The position numbers and the translations under genes were made by a program. DNA of 10,490 bases from an uncultured Prevotellaceae bacterium (lineage in GTDB: Bacteria > Bacteroidota > Bacteroidia > Bacteroidales > Bacteroidaceae). Under the pieces are notes generated by a model that was given only the letters and a program-made list of their open reading frames with translations, searched no databases and was not told the DNA's origin. Shown piece by piece: positions 8,456 through 10,490 of this stretch; the stretch's first letter is position 1, and each line of letters begins with the position of its first letter. The stretch spans positions 1 to 10,490 of the forward strand of contig CAMJNN010000038.1 in the NCBI GenBank assembly GCA_946407325.1, given 5' to 3'.

Positions 8456-9130
8456 ATGAAGAAGTATTTTGCTGAACTGGTAGGTACATTCGTACTTACA
8501 TTCCTGGGTTGCGGCGCAGCTGTTGCCCTGGGTTGCGGCTCTGACACCGCATCAATTGTTGGCACAGCCATCGCTTTTGGTCTGGCTGTAGTAGCTATGG
8601 CTTATACCATTGGTGGCATTTCAGGTTGCCACATCAATCCTGCCATTACCTTGGGTGTTTTCCTCAATGGCGGCATCAGTGCTAAGGATTGTGGCATGTA
8701 TATGCTGTTCCAGGTAATCGGTGCTATCTTGGCTGCTGCTGTATTGGCAGGCATCGTAGCTACCGACCCAGCTGCTGTGATTACCACCGCTACAGGTGCT
8801 AATGCTTGCACCTACGGAGCTACTAACGGTTTGGTGGTAGAGATTGTGCTCACGGCATTGTTCGTGCTGGTAGTACTGGGCGCTACTTCAAAGACCAACG
8901 GCGCTACCAACAACTTCGCAGGTTTGGCTATCGGCCTTTCACTGATTCTTATTCACCTGGTGGGCATCCACTTCACCGGCACATCAGTGAACCCAGCCCG
9001 TTCTATCGGTCCTGCTCTGTTCCAGGGTGGCAAGGCTTTGGCTGATCTGTGGGTATTCATCGTTGGCCCATTGGTAGGTGGTGCTATCGCAGCATTCATC
9101 TGGAAGGCCATCAAGCCCGAAGAGAAGTAA
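8456..9130 (+). CDS. aqpZ: AqpZ-type aquaporin (MIP family water channel)
   Basis: The 224-residue inner-membrane channel has six membrane helices and the two half-helices with NPA motifs, HINPAIT (Asn61-Pro62-Ala63) and SVNPARS (Asn179-Pro180-Ala181). The selectivity filter can be read off: Phe41, His167, Thr176 and Arg182, the water-selective set of E. coli AqpZ (Phe43, His174, Thr183, Arg189), not the glycerol-facilitator set. The His/Thr/Arg spacing equals AqpZ exactly. Length is normal. The gene is alone between its own promoter and terminator. Like fba it uses many GCT, GGT and GGC codons, suggesting good expression. It probably serves osmotic water exchange. Confidence 0.95.
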   Translation: MKKYFAELVGTFVLTFLGCGAAVALGCGSDTASIVGTAIAFGLAVVAMAYTIGGISGCHINPAITLGVFLNGGISAKDCGMYMLFQVIGAILAAAVLAGIVATDPAAVITTATGANACTYGATNGLVVEIVLTALFVLVVLGATSKTNGATNNFAGLAIGLSLILIHLVGIHFTGTSVNPARSIGPALFQGGKALADLWVFIVGPLVGGAIAAFIWKAIKPEEK

Positions 9131-9152: not shown

Positions 9153-9186
9153 AGGAGGGAGAGACTTTTCAGCCTCTCCCTCTTTT
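9153..9186 (+). terminator. Intrinsic terminator of the aquaporin gene
   Basis: GAGGGAGAG (9155-9163) pairs with CTCTCCCTC (9174-9182) over a 10-base loop and runs into TTTT (9183-9186). The stem starts 24 bases after the stop codon. Confidence 0.88.
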
Positions 9187-9275
9187 AATAATATAATAGG
9201 TACTGAAGAAAAGGGAAATGCATTAATTTTAGATAAAATAGGCTTCGCCTCGGAAATAAAAATAAATGCTTTTAT

Positions 9276-9307
9276 TTTGTATTTCTCTCGGCTTGCACTA
9301 TTTTTTG
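9276..9307 (+). promoter_or_regulatory. Promoter-like sequence in repeat copy 1
   Basis: TTTG (9276-9279), 19 bases, then TATTTTTTG (9299-9307), one T longer than the consensus -7 box. A transcript from here would carry the second palindrome in its leader. Confidence 0.45.
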
Positions 9308-9350
9308 ATAAATTAAGCTGCGCTTCAACAGAAAAAATAATCAAGTTTAT

Positions 9351-9381
9351 TTTGTTCTGTCTTCGGCTTGCATTAATTTTG
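9351..9381 (+). promoter_or_regulatory. Probable promoter of the ECF sigma factor gene, in repeat copy 2
   Basis: TTTG (9351-9354), 19 bases, then TAATTTTG (9374-9381) is a full consensus match. Transcription would begin near 9388, with a leader of about 34 bases. The G of the -33 box is the bulged base of the palindrome at 9328-9360, so the palindrome covers the -33 region. An 8-base direct repeat TTCTAAAT (9392-9399 and 9413-9420) lies in the leader. Confidence 0.75.
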
Positions 9382-9421
9382 CAAAAAAGTTTTCTAAATG
9401 CACGCAGTAGTGTTCTAAATT

Positions 9422-10024
9422 ATGGATTTAAGAGGTGTAAGGCGACTGGAAAAGCAAACTCTCACCGAGCAAGAGCTGGTGGAAGGGTGCAGGCGAGGCG
9501 ACGATGTGGCCCGCAGGCAGCTCTATGAACGCTATGCAGGCAAGATGATGGCCATCTGCATGCGATACATGGGTAATCGCGAAGAGGCTGAAGACTTGCT
9601 GCACGATGGATACATCAAGCTCTATGGTTCGTTCGATAAGTTTGATTGGCAGGGTGAGGGAACCTTGCCAGCCTGGATGGCACGCGTGATGGCCAACCTT
9701 GCACTGCAACGGCTCCGCAAGAACGATGTGATGAGTCAGACGGTGGAACTGGAGAACACTGCCGAACTGCGTGACGATGTGGACAGACCTGACGAAGGCC
9801 CCGACATCGAGACCATACCCAAGAAAGTGCTGATGCAATTCATTGAGGAACTGCCTCCTGGCTATCGTGCCGTGTTCAATATGCACGTCTTTGAGGGCAA
9901 GAACCACATAGAGATTGGCAAGGAGCTGGGCATCAACAACAAGTCGTCTGCCTCTCAATTGGTAAGGGCGCGAGCCATACTGAAAGAACGAGTGAATGAG
10001 TGGAGAAGACAAAATGGATTATGA
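9422..10024 (+). CDS. ECF-type RNA polymerase sigma-70 family factor
   Basis: This 200-residue alternative sigma factor should direct RNA polymerase to a specific set of promoters. Region 2 spans about 31-101 (RQLYERYAGKMMAICMRYMG, then EEAEDLLHDGYIKLY, the core-binding part, and LPAWMARVMANLALQRLRKN for the -10 contact). An acidic linker (about 108-131) follows, then region 4 at about 134-192 with IEELPPGYRAVFNMHVFEG and the helix-turn-helix HIEIGKELGINNKSSASQLV. There is no region 1.1 or 3, as in ECF factors. The stop codon overlaps the start of the next gene by four bases (ATGA), indicating coupled translation with a likely regulatory partner. It is not followed by susC/susD genes within the window, so this is not clearly a polysaccharide-locus sigma. 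The start at 9422 fits the nearby promoter. Confidence 0.93.
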   Translation: MDLRGVRRLEKQTLTEQELVEGCRRGDDVARRQLYERYAGKMMAICMRYMGNREEAEDLLHDGYIKLYGSFDKFDWQGEGTLPAWMARVMANLALQRLRKNDVMSQTVELENTAELRDDVDRPDEGPDIETIPKKVLMQFIEELPPGYRAVFNMHVFEGKNHIEIGKELGINNKSSASQLVRARAILKERVNEWRRQNGL

Positions 10025-10490
10025 AAACTACAAAAGATATGAAAGAAAACGATGACATATGGCTGAAGCAATGGAAGGACTGCCTCGAGGATTACGAGGA
10101 AGAAGTTCCTGTGAATGGCTGGGAGCGACTGCAAGCCGATCTGCAAGCCAATGACAGTGGTCAACGTTCAATGGTCAACGGTCAGGTCATTCCCTTTCGT
10201 CGATGGAAGGTAGTGGCAGCTGCAGCTGTGGTAGTACTCGTTGCTGGTGCCGGCATCTGGTTCCTGGCATCCGACCAAGCGCCACAAGTGCCTTCCGTTG
10301 AATCCCCCTTAGCACAGTTGTCACAAAATGACATTCCTGAACCTGAAACGCCTTTGGATACCATCGAGTCAGAACAAGAAGATGATGAGGAAGAACCCAT
10401 TGCCACGTTTGTTTCTGAAGAGCTGTCACCTGCGGATGCTGACATTACTGAACAACCAGCCCCAGCAGTTCAGAAGTCCACGAAGGCATC
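10021..10490 (+). CDS. Single-membrane-span protein coupled to the ECF sigma factor, putative anti-sigma (cut by window edge)
   Basis: The 156 codons seen run open to the window end. The N-terminal part (about 1-60) is cytoplasmic-looking and acidic, with DDIWLKQWKDCLEDYEEEVP and WERLQADL, a pattern I recall in Bacteroidales proteins coded directly after ECF sigma genes. Residues about 64-82 (VVAAAAVVVLVAGAGIWFL) form one membrane segment after the basic stretch FRRWK. After it comes a long Pro/Glu/Asp-rich spacer (about 85-150). Such proteins often end in an outer-membrane beta-barrel-like domain, which would lie beyond the window. The His-x3-Cys-x2-Cys motif of zinc anti-sigma factors is absent. 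The start overlaps the sigma stop (ATGA); an alternative ATG six codons later (10039) is possible. An anti-sigma role is inferred from position and topology. Confidence 0.75.
   Translation, partial: MKTTKDMKENDDIWLKQWKDCLEDYEEEVPVNGWERLQADLQANDSGQRSMVNGQVIPFRRWKVVAAAAVVVLVAGAGIWFLASDQAPQVPSVESPLAQLSQNDIPEPETPLDTIESEQEDDEEEPIATFVSEELSPADADITEQPAPAVQKSTKA

Follow-up and report, generated by a model that had tools for sequence, protein, structure and literature searches.

Tandem hairpins at a sigma factor promoter belong to a dispersed family of putative mobile promoter elements in Bacteroidales

The tandem repeat found upstream of an ECF-type sigma factor gene in the window, that is, in the whole stretch of 10,490 nucleotides that was analyzed, is one member of a large dispersed family of DNA hairpins of about 75 bases in rumen and gut bacteria. 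It probably represents a mobile hairpin that is non-coding, carries a promoter, and is present here in two tandem copies. Such units would insert in a single direction, directly after the TTT of a -7 box that is already there, leaving the old box upstream, while the unit's own box, completed by the host G, would become the box closest to the gene. Tandem arrays may be produced by repeated insertion at one box or by slippage and, judging from its sequence, the new promoter is predicted to work.

In the window (Table 1), the sequence-only reading had described two ungapped copies of 75 bases. These copies start at 9220 and 9295 (9220-9294 and 9295-9369) and are identical at 52 of 75 positions; when the intergenic region was re-sampled 40 times with a first-order Markov model (spacings of 40-110), the best 75-base match reached only 40 of 75. 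A partial third copy, consisting of the first 20 bases of the repeat, begins at 9369. Tandem Repeats Finder does not report the array in the window because, going by the description of this tool, the copies fall below about 70% likeness. The four compensating changes that had been read in the palindrome are all present (pair 34-66 from G-C to A-T, 35-65 from A-T to C-G, 37-63 from A-T to G-C, and 38-62 from T-A to A-T, in copy coordinates), the bulged G at copy position 60 is retained in both copies, and this G is indeed the final base of the -33 TTTG. Two features had been missed, namely, the insertion into a -7 box and an outer stem that contains this box. The seven pairs of the outer stem are also compensated between the copies (AAAATAG/CTATTTT in unit 1 versus AAATTAA/TTAATTT in unit 2), and the 3′ arm overlaps the -7 box in both. 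Both copies fold as long hairpins that contain a single bulge, with z-scores of -2.67 and -2.89 on the + strand and -4.29 and -3.19 on the - strand.

Table 1. Features of the repeat and of the neighboring genes in the window
Feature	Coordinates	Strand	Remarks
Upstream gene, major intrinsic protein (aquaporin)	8456..9130	+	Pfam MIP; outside the element
Left -7-type box TAATTTT	9224..9230	+	Single box in element-free relatives
Hairpin unit 1	9231..9305	+	75 bases; register taken from insertions in relatives
Unit 1, outer arms	9235-9241 and 9298-9304		
Unit 1, -33 TTTG	9276-9279		
Unit 1, own box TATTTTT	9299-9305	+	Canonical G position without G
Hairpin unit 2	9306..9380	+	Covariance-model match 9305-9381, 93.4 bits; the window unit was one of the 12 from which the model was built
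Unit 2, outer arms	9310-9316 and 9373-9379		
Unit 2, -33 TTTG	9351-9354		
Unit 2, own box TAATTTT	9374-9380	+	Followed by host G at 9381
Sigma-proximal -7 box TAATTTTG	9374..9381	+	19 bases 3′ of the -33 TTTG
Downstream gene, ECF-type sigma factor	9422..10024	+	Pfam Sigma70_r2, Sigma70_r4_2, and Sigma70_ECF above cut-off

The left box of the window is read as the box of an older promoter or as the remnant of a further unit. The nearest genome examined, G001, shares 50% of the sampled 31-letter words of the window, and its locus matching the repeat is 98% identical; an aquaporin-type gene adjoins the sigma gene in seven close orthologues. Two other observations concern the neighborhood. An inverted repeat at 9155-9182 (GAGGGAGAGACT/AGCCTCTCCCTC, then CTTTTAA), 3′ of the aquaporin gene, is probably the terminator of this gene. 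After the sigma gene, a frame at 10021-10490 that starts with MKTTKDMKEND has no match to a Pfam family and contains one strongly hydrophobic stretch, which, going by its predicted product, might be like that of an anti-sigma factor.

The proposal that selection acts on the pairing itself was borne out well beyond the two copies. In three alignments, 94.7%, 94.4%, and 92.1% of the pair cells are indeed paired, against 37-50% when the partners are slid by 1-3 columns. Both-sided changes are observed at 20, 19, and 17 of the 22 pairs, and none of 500 shuffles reached the observed value in any covariation measure. The first alignment has 63 matches (56 distinct); the second has 91 matches from 80 further stretches, taken non-randomly from the higher-scoring matches among relatives; and the third has 28 matches from other families of the order and one fecal scaffold. 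Alignments A2-A4 were fitted to the model, which biases them toward the structure, yet the gap is wide. Five of the A4 units (in L058, L368, and L369) are shared with A2 or A3, and unit 1 of the window is absent from A2 because units with a two-base overlap are discarded by the model search.

The suspicion that the repeat might belong to a dispersed Bacteroidales family was likewise correct. The window locus matches 14 places in G001, its own counterpart included, and a covariance model built from 12 units finds at least 35 matches in this genome at E ≤0.1, 32 of them at E ≤0.01. Among 61 related genomes, 24 carry matches, with up to 37 per genome as a lower bound; of these carriers, 22 (counting G001) are among the 37 genomes of the same genus and two belong to other families, and G002 and G003 have one borderline match each. 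In an order-wide sample, at least 13 of 198 genomes were matched under a stricter limit, and the same unit layout is found in other families of the order. All these counts are minimum values, since scoring covered a part of the candidates (150 of 1992 in G001, 79 per genome in the relatives, and 24 in the order sample). Across the family, unit length varies from about 65 to 90 bases, compared with 75 in the window. Rfam 15 has no match at E ≤1 over the window element, and an Rfam scan of 10 element loci gave one tRNA and nothing else. The element has no match among plasmid records, and phage records contain matches in four scaffolds from human feces. One of these scaffolds, filed as a bacteriophage (L362, MT835658.1), has a tandem pair of units, 19 bases ahead of a frame of 258 aa, which we take to resemble a hydrolase; this scaffold may be bacterial DNA rather than phage.

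The 3′ half of each unit has the layout of a Bacteroidota promoter, for which the sigma-ABfr consensus is TAnnTTTG at -7 and TTTG near -33 (PMC7366714). The -33 TTTG lies in the inner stem and the -7 TAnnTTT forms the 3′ side of the outer stem, while the 5′ half is an imperfect complement of the 3′ half. When one array is counted per locus and strand in the second set, TAnnTTTG forms the end of 79 of the 83 arrays, and an ATG-started frame begins no more than 160 nt downstream of 72 of them (median 27.5), against 42 of 83 in the opposite direction; the exceptions are 11 arrays without a near start and four without the terminal TAnnTTTG. Single matches end in TAnnTTTG in 49 of 63, 83 of 91, and 21 of 28 cases in the three sets; these tallies also count units from the interior of tandem arrays, where the G is often missing. 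Promoter motifs and gene orientation are consistent with putative mobile promoter elements. As for the window, the repeat had been placed at the promoter of an ECF sigma factor gene. The site was right; the sigma gene itself is incidental, since units also precede genes for dehydroquinase II, Cpn10, an ETF subunit, TP_methylase, and many others. By Pfam, the genes behind units also include those for an Asp-Al_Ex permease, a redoxin-like protein, an NlpC/P60 protein, and a ribosome-binding-type GTPase.

Some copies depart from this layout. In the first set, L031, L034, L037, and L039 have a TTTTC-like end without TAnnTTTG and point at distant genes or at the 3′ ends of genes, and there is no near start ahead of L053 and L057. 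The TTTTC-ending variant, seen in addition at L035 and L303, has several copies that follow gene 3′ ends and may be a non-promoter subfamily or a terminator. Separately, a nested repeat occurs inside the upstream unit at L041, L141, and the region of L016:1460, that is, in two genomes (G001 and G028) and at different genes; this second, small palindrome reads CTCCCCCG...CGGGGGAGAG or CGGAGGAGAG and has CAACAG after it.

The insertion point, which is observed as directly as the family, its paired structure, and its orientation, comes from the comparison of filled and empty sites among near relatives. Twelve loci were compared, and eight were interpretable: those of the sigma, dehydroquinase, permease, ETF, TP_methylase, redoxin-like (L020), and NlpC/P60 (L023) genes and, in a different family, that of the GTPase gene. 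At every one of the eight, unit-free relatives have one TAnnTTTG, and carriers have a box, the unit, and a box. For instance, the empty permease site of G090 reads TCACTATCTTT/GCAG, where the slash marks the junction, and the filled site of G001 reads TCACTATCTTT/AGATAAGTTAG...CACTAACTTT/GCAC. For the ETF gene, the empty site is TACCTTTGCAGCC (G090 and G028) versus CTACCTTTGGATAAGTTAC...CGTAACTTTGCAGCC when filled (G001). At the window locus, unit-free relatives retain TAnnTTTG followed by a GCAAAAAAG-like sequence. A paralogous empty site in G001 also has the right-hand junction in common with a filled one. The last box at filled sites is the unit's own; consequently, any target duplication amounts at most to about TTT. 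The left box generally lacks the G of TAnnTTTG, often still reads TAnnTTT, and is degraded at L020 and, for the GTPase gene, in the copy of G058. The ends of the unit are not terminal inverted repeats of each other, as the left arm begins some 4 bases in from the end. Four of the 12 loci have no interpretable empty site: L022, where G028 reads TATCTTCG and the other relatives have diverged, L025, and two genes that we take to be M23-like and HAD-like.

These junctions bear on the idea that no mobility is involved and that an ancestral hairpin architecture at promoters has spread only by tandem slippage and gene conversion. Local expansion does occur, as identical neighbors in tandem arrays show (e.g., L366 and L370). 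Nevertheless, close relatives are unit-free at the same promoter at the eight loci, and the genomes that are filled differ from locus to locus, which makes an immobile architecture very improbable. At the GTPase gene, G058, G299, and G300 have units of different kinds at the same promoter, and four relatives have a bare box. At the window locus, the relatives have two units, one, one decayed, a diverged version, a remnant, or none.

It is also conceivable, if unlikely, that the hairpin functions in place and its dispersal is secondary. In that case, it would be a cruciform or protein site at the promoter, or a stem-loop that stabilizes or regulates the mRNA; transcripts from the left box would start near the foot of the outer stem and so carry a 5′-terminal stem-loop. 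Left boxes do frequently remain TAnnTTT, and, by eye, units at orthologous sites differ by paired changes. In stem 2 of the Asp-Al_Ex permease (antiporter) units, GCC/GGC corresponds to ACC/GGT; in the dehydroquinase units, GCC/GGC corresponds to GTC/GAC, with an additional outer change from G-C to A-T; and in the ETF units, GTC/GAC corresponds to ATC/GAT. However, the G of TAnnTTTG is usually lost from the left box, and the transcript that a single unit would give from its own box excludes the hairpin. Moreover, the flanks at the antiporter gene are similar whereas the inner hairpin has many differences, which looks like replacement of the unit by a different copy, and such an exchange would explain some of the paired differences at orthologous sites. 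The sequence-only reading had implied that the palindrome arms stay complementary at orthologous sigma loci, and here the outcome is mixed. At L073, the outer stem persists, with one compensating change, but the second stem is disrupted; the left arm has decayed at L071, L072 has diverged, L076 is a remnant, and L074 and L075 lack the element.

The outer stem offers a candidate for target recognition. Its 5′ arm complements the box of the unit itself, and it also matches the host left box at a mean of 5.68 of 7 positions versus 5.26 when permuted (n = 38, p = 0.0008). The signal comes from box positions 1 (p = 0.0014) and 4 (p = 0.0005), and, of four shifted registers, three are null and one gives p = 0.03. 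For this comparison, 88 distinct contexts were stripped of likely tandem remnants, leaving 47, and then of probable orthologues, leaving 38. An earlier test that kept some tandem cases gave p = 0.0002 (n = 45), and an earlier form with all loci ranged from p = 0.0002 to 0.0026 as the tandem-remnant filter was tightened; in the smallest filtered subset, of five loci, the signal is gone (p = 0.41). This complementarity supports, but does not prove, a target choice by base pairing such as that of IS608. The distance from the left box to the arm is 4 nt in 24 of the 38 cases and 8-13 nt in most of the others. Given that the box is intact 8-13 nt before the arm in some genomes, the left end is not fixed and lineages differ. 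In G019 and G031, for instance, the left box is intact (TATCTTTG or nearly so) about 12 bases before the arm, and the left end consists of the box, a variable stretch, and then a AAGCGAAGATAAGC-like sequence; left ends of this type occur at L048, L049, L068, L233, L241, L242, L264, and L283.

A tentative mechanism can be drawn from these features. The unit would move in single-stranded, folded form once some enzyme had cut it after its TTT. The 5′ arm of the outer stem would initially pair with the box of its own unit and later with that of the target, like the guide of IS608, while the target is perhaps melted by RNA polymerase. Joining would then leave the old box upstream and the unit's box beside the gene, so that insertions before housekeeping genes may be tolerated because a promoter is put back. 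It is possible, though far from assured, that the element is thus a single-stranded hairpin whose 5′ arm is a DNA guide to -7 boxes, that it swaps active promoters, and that its enzyme lies outside the known families of hairpin transposases.

A more ordinary non-autonomous element would be a REP sequence moved by a Y1 transposase (RAYT), or a MITE of a DDE insertion sequence with a preference for T-rich sites. The element is in fact small, intergenic, palindromic, and dispersed, and eight of the 24 element-bearing genomes have a Y1 match. Yet such matches are also found in 20 of the 37 genomes without the element, whereas G008 and G058, two genomes of 99% completeness with 37 and 26 element matches, respectively, have none. 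In addition, none of 30 Y1 loci (85,366 bases; eight of the 30 in element-bearing genomes) has a unit at E ≤1. The Y1 transposase does not track the element, and a REP/RAYT link is unsupported both by its distribution and by these unit-free loci. As to a MITE, the ends are not terminal inverted repeats of one another and any target duplication is at most about TTT, which may speak against it. An origin of this ordinary kind is quite doubtful.

Other possibilities were examined as well. None of 15 carriers has an integron integrase over the TIGR02249 cut-off, so this link was dropped; weaker matches, seen in 15 of 15 carriers and 14 of 14 controls, indicate no more than the presence of other tyrosine recombinases, which may still be involved. 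The searches for Y1 transposases and integron integrases thus found no mobilizing enzyme. For a larger autonomous version, a pattern search in G001, G028, and G009 gave 27 left ends, 24 of which coincide with known units. An apparent cassette array at L069 (contig 14 of G001) has four copies between genes, after reverse-transcriptase and bAvd-like genes; no cassette is claimed there because the block that is alike exceeds the unit and other stretches of the locus are duplicated too. The two genes themselves (L069:2511-4150; Pfam bAvd and RVT_1) are adjacent and lie upstream of the four near-identical variant units, in what we take to be an arrangement as in a diversity-generating retroelement.

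If the preferred reading of a promoter-carrying mobile hairpin is correct, the family would be a mobile element aimed at the core promoter that restores a promoter, which would explain why it is tolerated before housekeeping genes. It would also be a source of promoter turnover that can be traced in Bacteroidales, give DNA-guided target choice a second setting, and point to a new recombinase. The family may represent an undescribed route by which bacterial gene control is rewired, and the covariance model, together with the filled and empty junctions, makes each part of the proposal testable.

No description of this hairpin element was recognized among the open-licence papers that the literature searches listed, although several known systems share features with it. 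The attC sites of integrons are imperfect hairpins with an extrahelical base and a recombination point at the outer stem, and they form arrays of repeated sites. The bulged imperfect hairpin, the junction at the outer stem, and the tandem repetition are all found here too, but without an integron integrase over the cut-off in the 15 carriers, and the units are dispersed promoters rather than one array. REP and REPIN sequences associated with RAYTs are also short, dispersed, intergenic palindromes that are often paired or clustered, but they are reported to have 20-40 bases rather than about 75 (PMC3733652, PMC3116915). The present units, in contrast, sit at promoters, carry promoter sequence, and do not track Y1 genes.

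Two repeats come from the same order. BrickBuilt of Porphyromonas gingivalis is a dispersed intergenic Bacteroidales element with internal tandem repeats and promoter activity, for which its authors raise the idea of a putative mobile promoter; however, its repeats are of 23 nt within a MITE-like leader and tail, its promoters are bidirectional and lie 49-591 nt from genes, and the available portion of the source describes neither a covarying hairpin unit nor insertion at a -7 box (PMC4596501). PINSR of Prevotella intermedia is a dispersed intergenic repeat without terminal inverted repeats (177 and 184 copies), but it is 188 bp long and the word promoter does not occur in the text of its description, by which, rather than by sequence, it is set apart here (PMC4755523).

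A further likeness is to the IS200/IS605 family and its member IS608, which inserts 3′ to a short fixed target recognized by guide pairing near the foot of a hairpin (PMC5934647). Shared with this family are the end hairpin and the short fixed target kept in the left flank, and recognition of the target by base pairing may be shared too; insertion 3′ of a fixed short target without a long duplication was found at eight of the 12 loci. In contrast to IS608, many carriers here lack a Y1 transposase, the unit is one gene-free hairpin, and the signal for guide pairing is a statistical one. The target differs as well, and it is in this respect, that is, in where the units sit, at -7 boxes, that the present family is new.
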